Of a stretch of DNA of 64,000 nucleotides, positions 32,023 through 56,568 are shown piece by piece; the stretch's first letter is position 1, and each line of letters begins with the position of its first letter. The position numbers and the translations under genes are program-made. Location of the stretch: NCBI GenBank assembly GCA_902616005.1, contig CACMRG010000002.1:1-64000 (forward strand), given 5' to 3'. The DNA is from an uncultured SAR116 cluster alpha proteobacterium. Lineage in GTDB: Bacteria; Pseudomonadota; Alphaproteobacteria; Puniceispirillales; Marisalimonadaceae. The notes below the pieces were generated by a model. It had not been told where the DNA came from, made no database searches, and saw only the letters and a list, made by a program, of their open reading frames with translations.

Positions 32023-32718
32023 TTATTTATTTTTCCAAATTGAATTTTTCATTTCTTTTATAAAGTTATTATGTTCTTTTATTTCATGATCCGCGATTCT
32101 CATTAGCCAATCCCTAGGTTTTAAAAATTCGTCTTTAAGTGTTGAGCTATCTGTATTACTATCTAATTTGACGGTTTTTAGATCTATTAAATTTAAATTT
32201 TCTTGCTTTCCCGTTGTTAATCTTAGATAGACTTTAGCTAATAAAGTAGCGTCTAATAACGCTCCATGGTAATCTTGTCTAGTATTAATAATAGTAAGTT
32301 TTCTGCATAATGAATCTAAATTCACTGTTTGTCCAGGAAATTCTTTTCTAGCTATTTTAACTGTATCAATTATAAAATTTTCAAGAATGTTGAAACCACA
32401 GTTCTGCAATTCTTTGTTTATAAAACTTGTATCGAATTCAGAATTGTGAATTACAATTATATCATCTTTAATAAAGTCTAAAAACTTTTGCGCTATTTGA
32501 CTAAATTTTGGCTTGTCTGTCAGAAATTGATTTGATATCCCATGAATTTTTTGTGCGGATATGCTTATTTCTTTTTCTGGATTAATGTATTCATGAAAAC
32601 AGTTTTGCGTTAACACATTATCTTTCAATTCCACTATACCAATTTCTATGATCTTATCACTTTCAAAATTGAGGCCTGTTGTTTCTGTGTCGAGGATTAA
32701 TATTCTTTCATTTTGCAT
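32023..32718 (-). CDS. dnaQ: DNA polymerase III epsilon subunit (3'-5' proofreading exonuclease)
   Basis: This 231-residue DEDDh exonuclease proofreads replication. Exo motifs are visible: ILDTETTGLNF, VIHNSEFDTSFINKEL and the third motif HGALLDATLLAKVYLRL. The order secB/dnaQ-coaE next to the proposed origin is conserved in alphaproteobacteria. It overlaps coaE by 11 bases. Confidence 0.95.
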   Translation of the reverse strand: MQNERILILDTETTGLNFESDKIIEIGIVELKDNVLTQNCFHEYINPEKEISISAQKIHGISNQFLTDKPKFSQIAQKFLDFIKDDIIVIHNSEFDTSFINKELQNCGFNILENFIIDTVKIARKEFPGQTVNLDSLCRKLTIINTRQDYHGALLDATLLAKVYLRLTTGKQENLNLIDLKTVKLDSNTDSSTLKDEFLKPRDWLMRIADHEIKEHNNFIKEMKNSIWKNK

Positions 32719-33310
32719 TTCTTACTTTCAACCTGGTCATTATTTTAAATAATAGATATATTATATTAAGAAAAATTATTAATCTTGAATTATTTGTGTT
32801 TATTATAAAAGGCTTAAATTTTCTTTTCTCATTAAAACTTAACTGTGACTTAATTATCTTCTTATATAGACATTTTGATATTTTATCCCTATTTAAAACT
32901 CTTTTTTCCTGCAACTTTGCATCACAATTTGTTAACAAAATAAAATCGTATTCACTTTCTGATTTTGTTTCATAAATTAATGGGACATCATAAATTAATA
33001 TTTTCTTTTTTGAATAAATCTTTTCAAAATGACTCTTTTCAACTTTTAAGTAAGGATATAATATTTTTTCCAATTTTTCTTTTTCATTTAAACTGGAAAA
33101 TATTATTGTTTTTAATCGTGTCTTGTTTATTTTATTCCTCTCTATTATTGAGGGCCACTCTTCTTTTATTTTTCTTTTTATTTTTTTCTTCTGTAGTATT
33201 TTTTTTATTTCTTTATCTGCATTAAATACCGGTATATTAAATACAGCAAACATATTTGCTATTGTTGTTTTACCTGTACCAATTGATCCTGTTATCCCGA
33301 TTTTATACAT
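32708..33310 (-). CDS. coaE: Dephospho-CoA kinase
   Basis: This 200-residue P-loop kinase does the last step of coenzyme A synthesis. GITGSIGTGKTTIANMF is the Walker A segment at the N-terminus, followed by FNADKE and YDVPLIYE. The C-terminal third is Lys/Asn-rich and weakly conserved. The ATG at 33310 borders the candidate origin. Confidence 0.93.
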   Translation of the reverse strand: MYKIGITGSIGTGKTTIANMFAVFNIPVFNADKEIKKILQKKKIKRKIKEEWPSIIERNKINKTRLKTIIFSSLNEKEKLEKILYPYLKVEKSHFEKIYSKKKILIYDVPLIYETKSESEYDFILLTNCDAKLQEKRVLNRDKISKCLYKKIIKSQLSFNEKRKFKPFIINTNNSRLIIFLNIIYLLFKIMTRLKVRNAK

Positions 33311-33531
33311 ATTTGATTGTGAATAATTAAACTATTTTTACTTATTTATTTTTTATTAACAATAAATGAAATTTTTTTTTTGTGTATAATTTGTTCACAA
33401 CAATAGGATATTTAATTTTATTTATTAAAAACAATCATTTAAGAAATCTTTATTTGTTTATAAAGTTTTATAAATTTTTATGAACAAAAAAAAGAGTACA
33501 ACAACAAAAACTTTATCTATTATAAATAATA
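33311..33531. other. Candidate chromosome replication origin (oriC)
   Basis: This 221-base non-coding stretch between coaE and hemE is the longest gap in the window. It holds two perfect TTATNCACA DnaA-box matches on the minus strand (33318-33326 TTATTCACA and 33381-33389 TTATACACA), one TTGTTCACA on the plus strand (33391-33399), and two weaker TTATNAACA forms (33455-33463 minus, 33478-33486 plus), among very AT-rich runs suitable for unwinding. In Caulobacter the origin lies beside hemE, and mnmG, rsmG, parA, parB and parS are close by here too. Function is inference from location and motifs. Confidence 0.65.
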
Positions 33532-34548
33532 ATGATTAGTAAACTGGTTAAATTAAGAAATAATCAAATTAAACCTAAATGGTTTTTGAGACAAGCAGGC
33601 AGACATATACCTGAATATCATGAAATACGAAATCGCCATGAGAATTTTCTCGATTTTTGCCTTGACGAGACTTCAATAGTTGATGCAACGCTTTTACCGT
33701 TAAAATTTTACAAGATCGATGCAGCTATTTTATTTTCTGATATATTATTATTACCTCATTGTTTAGGACAAAAAGTGACGTTTAAGAAAAATCTTGGACC
33801 ATCACTTGAAGAGATTGAAATAAATGAAGAATTTTTTAAAAGAAAATTAAGTTTAGATACATTATTACCTATAAAAAAAGCAATCTACAAAATAAAGAAA
33901 AAAATATCGCCATTGAAAGAACTAATAGGTTTTTGTGGTGCACCATGGACTCTCGCTTGCTATATGATTGAAGGTGCGAGTTCTAAAGATTATACTAAAA
34001 CAAGAAAGTTTTTATGGAACAATGAAAAAACCTATTTTAAATTGATTAACAAGTTAACTAATCATTGTGTGGAACTTCTCGAATATCAATACTTAGCAGG
34101 TGCAACAGTTTTAATGATTTTTGATTCATGGTCAAATATGATACCTGATAAGTATTGGGTTAACTTTGGAATAGAGCCTACAAAATTAATCGTTGATCGT
34201 TTAAGAGAGAAAAACGTGAAATGTCCTATTATCGGGTTGCCTTTTAAATCAGGGGAGATGCTAATTCAATATAGCTATGAAAGTTCTGTAGATATAGTTT
34301 CAATTGACTGGAAGACTAACTTAAATTGGGCATTAAAAAATATAAATAAAAATGTTGTGTCACAGGGTAACTTAGATCCAGTGTTACTTTGTTGTAGTAA
34401 TCTATCTGTTATTAAGGATGAAGTTTATAGAATTTTAAATCTTACAAAAGACAAGTGTCATATTTTTAATGTGGGTCATGGTTTAACCCCTGACGCACAA
34501 ATAAAAAATGTTCAATACATTATTAAACTTATAGATAACTACTCGTAG
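33532..34548 (+). CDS. hemE: Uroporphyrinogen decarboxylase
   Basis: This 338-residue enzyme makes coproporphyrinogen III in haem synthesis. The signature PKWFLRQAGRHIPEYHEIR is present, then AAILFSDILLLPHCLG and GFCGAPWTLACYMIEG. Length is typical. It is the first gene on the right of the candidate origin, with hemJ and rho following. Confidence 0.97.
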   Translation: MISKLVKLRNNQIKPKWFLRQAGRHIPEYHEIRNRHENFLDFCLDETSIVDATLLPLKFYKIDAAILFSDILLLPHCLGQKVTFKKNLGPSLEEIEINEEFFKRKLSLDTLLPIKKAIYKIKKKISPLKELIGFCGAPWTLACYMIEGASSKDYTKTRKFLWNNEKTYFKLINKLTNHCVELLEYQYLAGATVLMIFDSWSNMIPDKYWVNFGIEPTKLIVDRLREKNVKCPIIGLPFKSGEMLIQYSYESSVDIVSIDWKTNLNWALKNINKNVVSQGNLDPVLLCCSNLSVIKDEVYRILNLTKDKCHIFNVGHGLTPDAQIKNVQYIIKLIDNYS

Positions 34549-34983
34549 ATGTTATATCTATATATTAAATCATTTCATTTAATTTTTCTTATTGCTTGGA
34601 TGGTCTCTCTATTATATTTACCAAGACTTTTTGTATACCACACGTCTGTTTCGAAAGTCAGTTCGTCTTATAATTTGTTTTTGTTAATGGAAACAAGATT
34701 AATAAAAATTATAGCTATACCAGCAATGATACTGACACTTTCTCTCGGAACAATTCTACTTTACTATCAAAATGACTTACTTTATGAAAACTATTTTAGA
34801 ATTAAAATTTTATTTGTCTTAATTTTAGTTGTATATCAAATTTATTTAGTTCTCATATATTTGACTTTTAAAAAAAGAAAAAACAGAAAATCAAGTGTCT
34901 TTTTTAAGTTTCTTAACGAAATACCTACTATTTTTATGATTATTATCATTTTACTTGTTGTACTGAAACCTAATATAGGTTAA
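34549..34983 (+). CDS. hemJ: HemJ-type protoporphyrinogen IX oxidase
   Basis: This 144-residue membrane protein has about four hydrophobic helices. The N-terminal [25 protein letters not shown] carries the conserved His and the R-x-F-V-Y-H motif of the HemJ family, which oxidises protoporphyrinogen IX. Its ATG starts directly after the hemE stop, and the pair is functionally linked. Confidence 0.88.
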
Positions 34984-36277: not shown

Positions 36278-36281
36278 TATA

Positions 36282-36295
36282 GTTTCACGTGAAAC
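36282..36295. promoter_or_regulatory. parS: Perfect parS site overlapping the mnmE start codon
   Basis: GTTTCACGTGAAAC is a perfect 14-base palindrome and the core of the chromosomal parS sequence bound by ParB. The flanks are AG...CC. The mnmE start GTG (36289-36291) is the centre of the palindrome. ParA and ParB genes lie 3.8 kb downstream. Because no other start exists in frame nearby, ParB bound here would cover the mnmE translation start region on the DNA. Confidence 0.85.
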
Positions 36296-37617
36296 CAAAA
36301 AATAATGACACTATTTTTGCTTCATCATCACAGTTCAAATCTGCGATCAAAATAATAAGAATCAGCGGAGAAAAAGCAAAAAAAATTCCGCTTATATTTA
36401 ATTTTAAAAAATCAAGACCACGTGAATTTGTATTGAGAAAATTAATCTATAAAAAAAATATAATAGACTATGCGCCAGTTATTTGGCTTCCAAAAAGTCG
36501 AAGCTTTACAGGTGAGGATACATACGAAATTTATATACATGGAAGTATTATAATAGAAAAATTGATTTATAAAGTTTTGTTAGCACTTAAAGGATTTAGA
36601 TTAGCAGAACCAGGAGAATTTACAAAAAGAGCAACAATAAATGGAAATATTGACCTGATTCAAGCAGAAAGTATAAACGATATTATCAATTCGCAAACTG
36701 AAAAACAACTCTCTATAGCTCAGTCACAATTAGAGGGGTCATTAAGCAAAGTTGTTAACGATTGGAGAAAAGATATCGTTTATATGTCTTCATTAATTGA
36801 GTCTCTAATTGATTTTTCTGATGAAGATATTCCAGAAGAATTATGTAACCTTTTTTTTAATAAATTAAAAGAAGTTAGAATCAAAATTAAAAACTCAATA
36901 AAAACAGCAAAACTTTCTTCCTTTATAAAAGATGGTTTTGCCGTTGCAATAATAGGCAAACCAAATGTAGGGAAAAGTAGCTTAATTAATACTTTGACAA
37001 AATTAAATACTTCTATTGTAAGTGAAATACCTGGAACAACAAGGGACATTATTCAACAAAAAATAGATTTAAAGGGATTACCTATAATTTTATATGATAC
37101 AGCTGGGATTAGAAAAACAAAAAATGTAGTGGAAAGAAAAGGTATTGAATTAGCATTGGATATTATGAAAAAGAGCAATTTAATTTTAAATTTATGTGAT
37201 AAAGGCAAATTTAATCAGAGTGCATTAGAACAAAACTTTTTAATTAATAGTAATGTTAAAGTCATTAATGTTAAAACCAAGGCTGATTTGAATAAAACAA
37301 AAGATAAATATTCACACATAGAAATTTCTTCAAAGACAAATTTTGGTATTAATATGCTGTTAGAAAAGATATATTCTTTTTTATCGAGTTTAGAACCTAA
37401 AGAGTCATCTTTAATAACATCCGAAAGACAAATTTTACAATCAAAGAAAGCATTAAATGCATTAAATAGAATAAAAAATTTATCAATTGTGGAAGAAACA
37501 GAATTAATAGCCGAAGAATTAAGGCTTGCTTCTAATCATATTAGTAATATAACTTCCATAATAGATAATGAAGAAATTTTAGATAAAATATTTAGTAGTT
37601 TTTGTATTGGCAAATAA
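36289..37617 (+). CDS. mnmE: tRNA uridine-5-carboxymethylaminomethyl GTPase MnmE
   Basis: This 442-residue GTPase partners with MnmG to modify tRNA wobble uridine (cmnm5U). Domains are an N-terminal tetrahydrofolate-binding domain (ATINGNIDLIQAESINDII), a helical region holding a G domain with AIIGKPNVGKSSLIN, EIPGTTRDIIQ and DTAG, and the C-terminal FCIGK motif, whose Cys is needed for modification. The only reasonable start is GTG at 36289 inside parS. It sits 11 bases after rho and abuts mnmG. Confidence 0.96.
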   Translation: MKPKNNDTIFASSSQFKSAIKIIRISGEKAKKIPLIFNFKKSRPREFVLRKLIYKKNIIDYAPVIWLPKSRSFTGEDTYEIYIHGSIIIEKLIYKVLLALKGFRLAEPGEFTKRATINGNIDLIQAESINDIINSQTEKQLSIAQSQLEGSLSKVVNDWRKDIVYMSSLIESLIDFSDEDIPEELCNLFFNKLKEVRIKIKNSIKTAKLSSFIKDGFAVAIIGKPNVGKSSLINTLTKLNTSIVSEIPGTTRDIIQQKIDLKGLPIILYDTAGIRKTKNVVERKGIELALDIMKKSNLILNLCDKGKFNQSALEQNFLINSNVKVINVKTKADLNKTKDKYSHIEISSKTNFGINMLLEKIYSFLSSLEPKESSLITSERQILQSKKALNALNRIKNLSIVEETELIAEELRLASNHISNITSIIDNEEILDKIFSSFCIGK

Positions 37618-39483: not shown

Positions 39484-40130
39484 TGGTAGAAAAGTTTTCT
39501 ACACTAAAAAAACATATTAATGTTTCACATGAAACATTAGAAAAGCTGGCGATATATTTTGAGCTGTTAAGTTTTTGGCAAAAAAAAATGAATTTAGTAA
39601 GCAATAATTCTATGCAAAATGCAGAAACAAGACATTTCTTAGATTCTGCACAATTATATTTTTTCTGTAAAAATTTCAATGGAAATATTCTCGATTTCGG
39701 TTCTGGCGCTGGTTTTCCTGGAGCTGTACTGTCAATCCTAGGTGTCTCTAAAATTTTTTTAGTAGAATCAAGCAAAAAAAAATGTAATTTTTTATCAACA
39801 TTAAAAAGAGAGACAAGTAGTAATTTTAAAATAGTTAATTCAAGAATTGAAAATTTAGAGTTTTTAAATCCATCCTTAATTATGTCAAGGGCCTTAACAT
39901 CCACAAAAAATTTATTGTTGTTCTCAATTAATCATATGCTTAAATCTAAAAACATAAAATCGAAGGAAGAAGCACTAATAAATATGCCTAACTTATTGTT
40001 TTTAAAAGGAAAAACTTTTAAAAATGAATTAAATGATATCCCTAAAAATTTAAACATCAGATTTCAAATTTTCCAATCTATTACAAGTGCAGAAAGTAAA
40101 ATTTTATTGTATAATAGACATATTCTATGA
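39483..40130 (+). CDS. rsmG: 16S rRNA G527 N7-methyltransferase RsmG (GidB)
   Basis: This protein of about 215 residues is a SAM-dependent methyltransferase with ILDFGSGAGFPGAVLSIL as motif I, preceded by the family's INVSHETLEKLAIYF. The ATG at 39483 overlaps the mnmG TGA (TGATG). The VSHET segment is encoded by a parS-like sequence, with His replacing the usual Arg of VSRET. It overlaps parA as ATGA. Confidence 0.95.
   Translation: MVEKFSTLKKHINVSHETLEKLAIYFELLSFWQKKMNLVSNNSMQNAETRHFLDSAQLYFFCKNFNGNILDFGSGAGFPGAVLSILGVSKIFLVESSKKKCNFLSTLKRETSSNFKIVNSRIENLEFLNPSLIMSRALTSTKNLLLFSINHMLKSKNIKSKEEALINMPNLLFLKGKTFKNELNDIPKNLNIRFQIFQSITSAESKILLYNRHIL
39521..39536. promoter_or_regulatory. parS-like site with one mismatch, inside rsmG
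   Basis: TGTTTCACATGAAACA differs from the consensus TGTTTCACGTGAAACA at one central base, and is otherwise the full 16-base form. It encodes VSHET in RsmG. Many bacteria keep parS here, encoding VSRET. Whether ParB still binds this variant is unknown; the central CG change would be expected to weaken binding. Confidence 0.6.
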
Positions 40131-40915
40131 CATTAATTAATACTAATATTATGGCAGTAGCTAATCAAAAAGGTGGAGTTGGAAAGACAACAACTGTAAT
40201 TAACCTTGCTACAGCGATGGCTGCTTGCAATAAAAGAGTTTTAATTATTGATTCAGATCCTCAAGGAAATGCAAGCACCGGTTTGGGCCTAAATAAAACA
40301 GTTCTAATAAATAATTTTTATGATTTAATTAGAGGTGATATATCGATTAACAAAGCTATAACTAAAACTCAAATTCCAAATTTATTCATAATTCCTACTT
40401 CTATGGATTTAGCTGTTGTAGAACAGGAATTTGTCAATTTAGAGAAAAGAGAACAAAGATTAAAAAAAGAAATTGAAAAATTAAATACATATTTTGATTA
40501 TATTTTAATTGATTGCCCTCCATCTTTAGGTCTTTTAACTCTTAATGCACTAGTGGCATGCAAGAATTTATTAGTACCTATGCAGGTTGAGTTTTATGCT
40601 TTAGAAGGTTTAACACAACTAATGGAGACAGTTAATCAAATTAAAAATAATTATAATAAATCGTTAAATTTGCAGGGTATAGTCTTAACAATGTATGATA
40701 AAAGAAATAAGATATCTGAATTGGTTGCACATGATGTAAAAGATTTTTTTAAAGAAAAAGTTTATAAAACTATTATTCCAAGAAATGTAAAAATTTCTGA
40801 AGCGCCTAGTCATGGTTTACCAATTTTAATGTATGATATTTCAAGTTCAGGTTCCCAAGCTTACGCATCACTTGCAGCCGAAATAATAAATCAGGAGAAA
40901 AAACTTAATGCCTAA
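40127..40915 (+). CDS. parA: Chromosome partitioning ATPase ParA
   Basis: This 262-residue deviant Walker ATPase has ANQKGGVGKTTTVINLA at the N-terminus, DSDPQGNASTGLG, and YILIDCPPSLGLL, all ParA/Soj signatures. It moves ParB-parS complexes for origin segregation. Its start overlaps the rsmG stop as ATGA, and it overlaps parB by eight bases. Confidence 0.96.
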   Translation: MTLINTNIMAVANQKGGVGKTTTVINLATAMAACNKRVLIIDSDPQGNASTGLGLNKTVLINNFYDLIRGDISINKAITKTQIPNLFIIPTSMDLAVVEQEFVNLEKREQRLKKEIEKLNTYFDYILIDCPPSLGLLTLNALVACKNLLVPMQVEFYALEGLTQLMETVNQIKNNYNKSLNLQGIVLTMYDKRNKISELVAHDVKDFFKEKVYKTIIPRNVKISEAPSHGLPILMYDISSSGSQAYASLAAEIINQEKKLNA

Positions 40916-41771
40916 AGTTATTAAAAATAAACCATTAGGAAGGGGATTATCAAGCTTATTAGGAGAAAATTTAGATATTGACAATTTAACTAATAAAAAT
41001 TCGAAAAACGATTTAATTATTATACCAATTGATTATTTGTCAGCAGGTTCATGGCAGGTTCGTAAAAACTTTGATGAAAATGAATTACATAGTCTTTCAC
41101 AATCGATTAAAAATAATGGTATATTTCAACCCATAGTCGTAGTTTCAGATCAAGAAAATAAAGGTAAATACAAAATTGTAGCTGGCGAACGTCGTTGGAG
41201 AGCTGCGCAATTAGCTAAAATACATGAAGTTCCAATCATATTAAGAGATGACTTATCATCAGATAAAATCGTTGAAATATCTTTATTAGAAAATTTAGAG
41301 AGATCAGACTTAAATCCTTTAGAGGAGGCAAAAGGTTACAAGGATTTAATAGATGAACATAATTATACACAAGAAAAAGTTGCTAAAATGTTTAGAAAGT
41401 CCAGACCTTATATAACTAATTTCTTAAGATTGCTTACATTGCCAGATGAGATCAAATCTTATATTGTTGATGGAAAACTCTCAGTTGGTCATGCAAGAGC
41501 AATTATAAATAGTGAAAATTCGCTACAAGTAGCAAAAGACATAATAAAAAAAGGTTTATCAGTTAGAGAAGTTGAAAAAACTTTAAATAAGGTTAAAAAA
41601 TTTGATAATAATCTTGAAACTCACCAATATTCAAAGATTGAGAATGAATTATCTAGTAAAATAGGTCTCAAAACAAAAATTAATTTTAATAAAGAGAAAA
41701 AGAATGGGTCGCTAACAATTAAATTTAAAACTTTAGATCAATTAGATTTTATTATGGATAAGCTTAAATAA
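40908..41771 (+). CDS. parB: Chromosome partitioning protein ParB
   Basis: This 287-residue CTPase and DNA clamp loads at parS. The N-terminal GRGLSSLLGE motif touches ParA. The CTP-binding GERRWRAAQLA and ENLERSDLNPLEEAKGY follow, then the helix-turn-helix TQEKVAKMFRKSRPYITNFLRLL. AGGAG is a good ribosome site. Perfect and near-perfect parS sequences lie 4.6 and 1.4 kb upstream. Confidence 0.96.
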   Translation: MPKVIKNKPLGRGLSSLLGENLDIDNLTNKNSKNDLIIIPIDYLSAGSWQVRKNFDENELHSLSQSIKNNGIFQPIVVVSDQENKGKYKIVAGERRWRAAQLAKIHEVPIILRDDLSSDKIVEISLLENLERSDLNPLEEAKGYKDLIDEHNYTQEKVAKMFRKSRPYITNFLRLLTLPDEIKSYIVDGKLSVGHARAIINSENSLQVAKDIIKKGLSVREVEKTLNKVKKFDNNLETHQYSKIENELSSKIGLKTKINFNKEKKNGSLTIKFKTLDQLDFIMDKLK

Positions 41772-50252: not shown

Positions 50253-50253
50253 T

Positions 50254-50328
50254 TGGCTGGGGTGGTAGGATTCGAACCTACGGTACACGGGATCAAAACC
50301 CGATGCCTTACCACTTGGCTACACCCCA
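50254..50328 (-). tRNA. tRNA-Gln (anticodon TTG)
   Basis: On the minus strand the 75-base sequence starts TGGGGTGTAGCCAAGTGG, has the anticodon loop TTTTGAT giving anticodon TTG, a T-loop GGTTCGAATCC and ends with discriminator G plus an encoded CCA. The acceptor stem TGGGGTG pairs with CACCCCA. It is the only tRNA gene in the window. Confidence 0.95.
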
Positions 50329-50342
50329 TCATATATGCATAT

Positions 50343-56450: not shown

Positions 56451-56568
56451 TAAAAAAAAAAATCTACATATTGTTGGTTAAATTTTATAATTTTATAAAC
56501 TATTGACTTACTTAAATTTTTATAATTTTATCAAAATATATTAAGTTCTTATCAACATGTTATAAACA

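Follow-up and report, generated by a model that had tools for sequence, protein, structure and literature searches.

A Probable Chromosome Origin Between coaE and hemE of a SAR116 Alphaproteobacterium, with a Candidate Variant of the DnaA-Trio

Results and Discussion

Genomic Context of the coaE-hemE Gap

The stretch of DNA analyzed here (the window) comprises bases 1–64,000 of contig 2 (122,478 bp) in a 78%-complete assembly of 1.66 Mb and 63 contigs. The relatives of its HemE protein at 72–74% identity belong to SAR116-cluster alphaproteobacterial genomes. Within the window, coaE and hemE point away from each other across an intergenic gap, and parA and parB lie to the right (Table 1). The original prediction, made from the sequence of the window alone, had placed a probable chromosome origin in this gap, and its identification of coaE, hemE, parA, and parB agrees with Pfam matches. 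The gap was also described correctly as strongly AT-rich (13.6% GC compared to 27.5% for the whole window) and as the site of the longest gene-free stretch, because the longest stretch of the window without an open reading frame of at least 60 amino acids is located there (33327–33531, 205 bp) and the runner-up has 143 bp. A search of positions 32500–34600 against Rfam returned no RNA families.

The gap is 217–221 bp long in ten genomes of the genus and 244–301 bp long in 19 other loci of the family, which carry DnaA boxes in the gap as well. The direct contact of coaE with the gap is a feature of the window's family, unlike the other families of the order (L098–L112), in which coaE and hemE are separated by approximately 1.1 kb (f3) or 1.8 kb (f2 and one f4 locus), or coaE was not found nearby. 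The genes between coaE and hemE seem to have been lost stepwise.

Two other regions of the window stand out in base composition. Positions 50253–50342 form a 90-bp region free of open reading frames with 50% GC, inside a window of 27.5% GC, and probably represent a tRNA gene. Two tandem TTATNAACA words, 11 bp apart, are located at 56549–56568 in a 118-bp intergenic gap of 13.6% GC (56451–56568), and may mark a DnaA-regulated promoter or have arisen by chance.

Table 1. Features of the coaE-hemE gap and its surroundings (positions in the window).
Feature	Position	Strand	Evidence
coaE, left flank, leftward	32708–33310	-	Pfam CoaE, E = 3.8e-30
coaE-hemE intergenic gap, probable oriC	33311–33531	.	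221 bp, 13.6% GC; orthologous gap kept in 10 genomes of the genus and 19 further loci of the family
DnaA box 1, TTATTCACA	33318–33326	-	TGTG-ATA columns invariant or nearly so in genus alignment
DnaA box 2, TTATTAACA (TTATTCACA or TTTTTCACA in most congeners)	33353–33361	+	Genus alignment
DnaA box 3, TTATACACA	33381–33389	-	Pattern match and alignment
TTGTTCACA beside box 3, doubtful as a functional box	33391–33399	+	Poorly kept in genus (column conservation 0.4–1.0)
TTAAAAACA, candidate weak box within a conserved block	33425–33433	+	AAAACA block in alignment; direct reading
DnaA box 4, TTATAAACA (TTATCAACA in congeners)	33455–33463	-	8/9 columns invariant in 10 sequences
DnaA box 5, TTATGAACA (mostly TTATAAACA in congeners), putative anchor for unwinding	33478–33486	+	Alignment
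Spacer between box 5 and trinucleotide tract, 12 bp	33487–33498	.	Direct reading
DnaA-trio-like tract, + strand CAACAACAA, - strand 3'-GTT GTT GTT-5'	33499–33507	-	Alignment; CAACTACATCAA, CTACTACTACAT and similar in congeners
Proposed duplex-unwinding stretch, AT-rich, up to hemE start codon	33508–33531	.	Direct reading; AT-rich in aligned relatives
hemE, right flank, rightward	33532–34548	+	Pfam URO-D, E = 2.3e-84
parS-like site AGTTTCACGTGAAACC, 2 mismatches, ~2.8 kb right of gap	36281–36296	+	Site of same core in G032
parS-like site TGTTTCACATGAAACA, 1 mismatch, ~6 kb right of gap	39521–39536	+	Motif match
parA	40127–40915	+	Pfam
parB	40908–41771	+	Pfam

A Conserved Cluster of DnaA Boxes

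The two perfect TTATNCACA boxes predicted on the minus strand are present (boxes 1 and 3), as is a third motif, TTGTTCACA, which lies on the plus strand 1 bp from box 3. Variants of the type TTATNAACA were also anticipated, although there are three of them rather than two (boxes 2, 4, and 5). The pattern TTATN[A/C]ACA occurs five times in the 221-bp gap compared to an expected 0.17, and none of 4000 dinucleotide shuffles reached five; TTATNCACA occurs twice compared to an expected 0.024, likewise in none of 4000 dinucleotide shuffles. The pair of TTWTNCACA matches is indeed unusual, with two or more appearing in 9 of 4000 shuffles, but the earlier estimate of 0.04 matches is approximately half of the expectation from dinucleotide shuffling (0.085). 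TTWTNCACA shows no enrichment over the window as a whole (8 matches compared to 12.6 expected), and the boxes of the gap are therefore a local cluster. With five boxes, the gap is the densest 300-bp cluster of its own 122-kb contig, in which the next separate places have two. The same holds for a genome of the same family (G032), where the densest cluster of a 727-kb contig also contains five boxes, starting at position 495471, and the next elsewhere contains two. A density of five boxes in 221 bp is thus unique in both contigs.

Comparison of the gap across related genomes, as the original prediction had recommended, revealed that the box array is conserved in register. Throughout the ten genomes of the genus, boxes are located at approximately -213 (-), -177 (+), -148 (-), -74 (-), and -51 (+) from the hemE start, while their letters switch within TTATN[A/C]ACA and some genomes have no exact match at one or another position. 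Column conservation among the ten congeners is 0.88 in the boxes and 0.76 in the remaining gap (Mann-Whitney p = 2.5e-7, with columns treated as independent). Boxes 4 and 5 are nearly invariant despite being of the weaker TTATNAACA type. The TTGTTCACA motif beside box 3 was demoted as a functional box because it is not conserved in the genus.

A further conserved block between boxes 3 and 4 (33422–33440) consists of TTAAAAACA and the bases after it. The block matches none of the sites looked for, and is perhaps a weak box or the site of another protein.

GC Skew, dnaA, and Partition Sites

A switch in GC skew at hemE is apparent in relatives. The own contig is equivocal in this respect: its skew minimum at 66.5 kb (-704) is nearly tied with one at 33.5 kb (-693), and its skew therefore cannot place the origin alone. 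In the 727,698-bp contig of G032, a two-segment division of the GC skew has its best change-point at 495 kb, and hemE starts at 495,404; the strength of this change-point was matched by none of 2000 permutations of 1-kb segments and by 2 of 2000 permutations of 10-kb blocks. The raw cumulative curve of this contig is lowest at 461.7 kb, with hemE almost level with it. For G043, a complete genome of the same order, the 500 kb around hemE form a clean V with a minimum at 873,944, which is 6.7 kb away from hemE (867.2 kb), and dnaA is located at 993 kb, far up the skew slope. The sampled skew of another complete genome (G048) is weak; it reaches its lowest value near 1.1 Mb, and hemE (1.49 Mb) coincides with no more than a secondary dip.

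The original prediction had named a denser box cluster linked to dnaA as evidence that would speak against it. In five relatives, the DNA around dnaA (600 bp on its upstream and 500 bp on its downstream side) contains 0 or 1 box. The gene dnaA is absent from the own 78%-complete assembly, and lies approximately 62–64 kb from hemE in the family. The expected parS sites are represented by the two parS-like sites of Table 1. Contig C1 of G032 has parS-like sites at 489386 and 492639, approximately 6 and 3 kb from the origin. These distances resemble those in the window, and the parS spacing is thus seemingly conserved.

Based on the enrichment of boxes, their conserved positions, the skew switch in relatives, and the lack of a cluster at dnaA, the coaE-hemE gap is very probably the chromosome origin, and nothing that could be examined among the findings named as contrary evidence told against it. 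An AT-rich stretch (33508–33531) is located beside the boxes, as is typical of oriC. The origin coordinate of this SAR116 genome is now usable for peak-to-trough growth estimates in ocean metagenomes.

Control Sites and the Possible Loss of CtrA

As originally noted, the gap contains no exact CtrA site (TTAA-N7-TTAA); the few matches with one mismatch are as expected in such AT-rich DNA. There are also no matches to the IHF consensus and no GANTC sites in the gap. With an approximate Caulobacter CtrA sequence as the query, a CtrA orthologue (40–52% identity) was identified elsewhere in the order, in five genomes from families other than that of the window. In the window's family, including genomes that are 93–100% complete, no CtrA orthologue was found and the matches are ordinary response regulators with at most 36% identity; the best match in G000 (G000:C3:37287-37964) has 32%. 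The suggestion that control could differ from that of Caulobacter is thus supported, and this SAR116 family may possibly have lost the master cell-cycle regulator CtrA. With CtrA and its sites apparently lost, this family offers a naturally occurring example of an alphaproteobacterial origin free of CtrA control.

A Trinucleotide Tract Beside Box 5

On the hemE side of the gap, a trio-like element is followed by the AT-rich stretch; the two were absent from the original prediction and, with box 5 and its spacer, make up a probable unwinding module. In Bacillus subtilis, an oligomer of box-bound DnaA extends onto DnaA-trios (3'-GAT-5') located 10–13 bp away and captures the G and A (PMC8287927, PMC10721633). 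The 12-bp spacer in the window falls inside the 10–13 bp peak of published box-to-trio spacers (PMC8287927) and within the 16 bp allowed by the trio rule. The tract reads CAACTACATCAA, CTATTACTACAA, CTACTACTACAT, and the like in congeners, and CTACTACTACTA, CATCATCATCATCAA, and CATCAACATCAA in the family. The repeats of relatives are CTA, CAT, or CAA with the 3-base spacing retained, and all 10 genomes of the genus have C at columns 33499 and 33505. The feature that is kept is a C at every third base of the plus strand, which is a G at every third base of the minus strand.

Runs of at least three CWW triplets are present on the hemE-coding strand in 8/10 loci of the genus, 19/19 of the family, 7/18 of the order, and 26/60 of the class (60 hemE-upstream regions across Alphaproteobacteria), compared to 1, 2, 1, and 3 loci when the opposite strand is read and averages of 1.0, 1.4, 1.8, and 5.3 after shuffling, respectively, although these counts, like those of DnaA residues given below, overstate independence because the sequences are related. 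When CCA is also allowed, the tract is found in 44/60 class loci compared to 11 on the opposite strand. The strict pattern was undetected in 34/60 class loci and 2/10 congeners. The opposite strand served as the control for the tract; reversed sequences were of no use for this purpose, since a CWW run still looks like one after reversal. A loose genome-wide pattern (a box-like word, 9–15 bp, and three CWW triplets) was dropped because it is not specific, occurring approximately 10 times per genome and no more often than in the reversed control. In the dnaA-flanking DNA of non-alphaproteobacterial Pseudomonadota, the module was absent under the rule used.

To count as a trio under the published rule, a tract must have three or more 3'-NAN-5' triplets. 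Some congeners, for example L014 (CTACTACTA), pass this rule, and the tract of the window fails it because there are only three triplets and the trio strand has no adenine. Nine loci, including the window, have CAA as each of their first three triplets, which leaves the minus strand without adenine in any reading phase. The tract resembles a DnaA-trio whose central base is relaxed, and its conserved position and period suggest that it probably acts as a single-strand DnaA element. In published searches, 15% of origins yielded no trio, and the existence of deviant trios that lack the middle adenine was suspected (PMC8287927). Natural candidates for such trios are found in the window and in several unrelated alphaproteobacterial loci (CAACAACAA and longer). 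A 3-base repeat that has kept its spacing among relatives while its middle letter drifted away from the textbook one could be used to ask how DnaA picks the strand to open.

DnaA Residue 187 and the Middle Base

In B. subtilis, Asn187 contacts the middle adenine of the trio while Arg202 and Glu228 contact the G (PMC8287927, PMC10721633), and changing the middle A to T lowers initiation (PMC10721633). Aligned with 8btg, the DnaA of a congener (G006) has Tyr 187, Ile 190, Leu 193, Lys 202, and Glu 228 (positions counted on the alignment). Among 65 alphaproteobacterial loci, position 187 is Tyr in 58, Phe in 3, His in 1, Gln in 1, and Asn in 1, with 1 unread. The sole Asn genome (G164; L131 and L198) has canonical-looking triplets at hemE (CTACTACTT), which is one case only. 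Residue 187 and the middle base do not covary tightly within the class, as Tyr genomes also carry canonical CTA triplets, and the non-alphaproteobacterial Pseudomonadota give no covariation test because 13 of their 28 DnaA residues were unread.

The favored reading is that the side chains reading G may have been kept in kind along with the G itself, while the middle base was relaxed. The replacement of Asn187 by Tyr may tentatively be offered as the reason why the middle base is A or T (and apparently the complement of C elsewhere in the class). It is also conceivable, if doubtful, that Alphaproteobacteria use a variant trio, 3'-G-N-(T/A)-5', in which only the first G and the 3-base step stay constant, the middle is free, Tyr does the reading, and DnaA and its target have changed together. 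With this tract and the class-wide Tyr in the single-strand motif of DnaA, the letters that DnaA needs in a trio become directly testable.

Alternative Explanations

The gap could be something other than the origin, with the boxes acting as elements of a DnaA-regulated hemE or coaE promoter and the origin lying in the unassembled 20%. The gap must indeed hold the promoters of both hemE and coaE, and the assembly lacks dnaA together with roughly one fifth of the genome; however, the par genes and parS are next door and there is no cluster at dnaA, and a mere promoter region is very unlikely given the skew switch at hemE in relatives and the uniqueness of the box cluster in the contigs examined. 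A narrower doubt concerns the CAACAACAA tract of the window, which might be a decayed or chance repeat beside an AT-rich stretch that suffices for unwinding. Such DNA is AT-rich and of low complexity, the window has only three triplets, and 2 of the 10 congeners are without the strict pattern, yet two C columns are invariant in 10 genomes, the tract is found in all 19 other family loci, and the strand bias there is 19 to 2, all of which make a decayed or chance repeat unlikely.

It is also possible that the gap is an origin in which DnaA is recruited as in Escherichia coli, since the tract has the minus-strand sequence 5'-TTGTTGTTG-3'. This T-rich sequence contains TTGT, the single-strand motif of E. 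coli (PMC10797057, PMC10316083), which box-bound DnaA would grip after the DNA bends back, without a filament from box 5. The fixed 12-bp spacing from a box that points at the tract and a 3-base period that persists through changes to CTA or CAT are a better fit to one DnaA per triplet. The gap also lacks an IHF consensus, although HU can replace IHF, and recruitment of the E. coli type appears unlikely here.

The best overall explanation, headed by the gap being the chromosome origin, has high confidence as a whole. DnaA is predicted to bind the array of boxes 1 to 5 (33318–33486), and an oligomer starting at the hemE-facing box 5 would cross the 12-bp spacer onto the minus strand of 33499–33507. 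Capture of the tract as single-stranded DNA would open the AT-rich stretch beside hemE (33508–33531), where the helicase would be loaded, and ParA and ParB, encoded nearby, would segregate the new origins by means of the two parS-like sites 3–6 kb away.

Comparison with Known Systems

The Cori of Caulobacter crescentus and the predicted origins of Rickettsia and Wolbachia are linked to hemE (PMC1914354; PMC10797057). A hemE-linked origin is accordingly expected in the class, and the origin itself is an ordinary new member. It resembles these origins in adjoining hemE, in being AT-rich, in having several DnaA boxes including weak ones, and in having parA and parB near (PMC1914354, PMC10797057). 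In contrast to them, its other flank is coaE directly instead of COG1806 or COG1253, the gap has neither a CtrA TTAA-N7-TTAA site nor an IHF consensus in a family where no CtrA orthologue was found, and it is only 221 bp long compared to approximately 400 bp and more.

The trio strand of the window shares TTGT with the unwinding element of E. coli oriC (TTGT/TTATT motifs), whereas the three-base period, the fixed box spacing, and the lack of an IHF consensus set it apart, as does the lack of a dnaA-independent array of the E. coli type. The likeness is to the basal unwinding system of B. subtilis (DnaA-boxes 6/7 and 3'-GAT-5' trios), with a box, a short spacer (12 bp here), G-first trinucleotides, and AT-rich DNA in common. 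The two differ in that B. subtilis has a tandem pair of boxes and the window only one anchoring box, whose neighbor faces the other way, and in that the middle base is T in the window (3'-GTT) and A or T in its relatives, while Asn187, which contacts the middle adenine in B. subtilis, is replaced by Tyr in the window's group.
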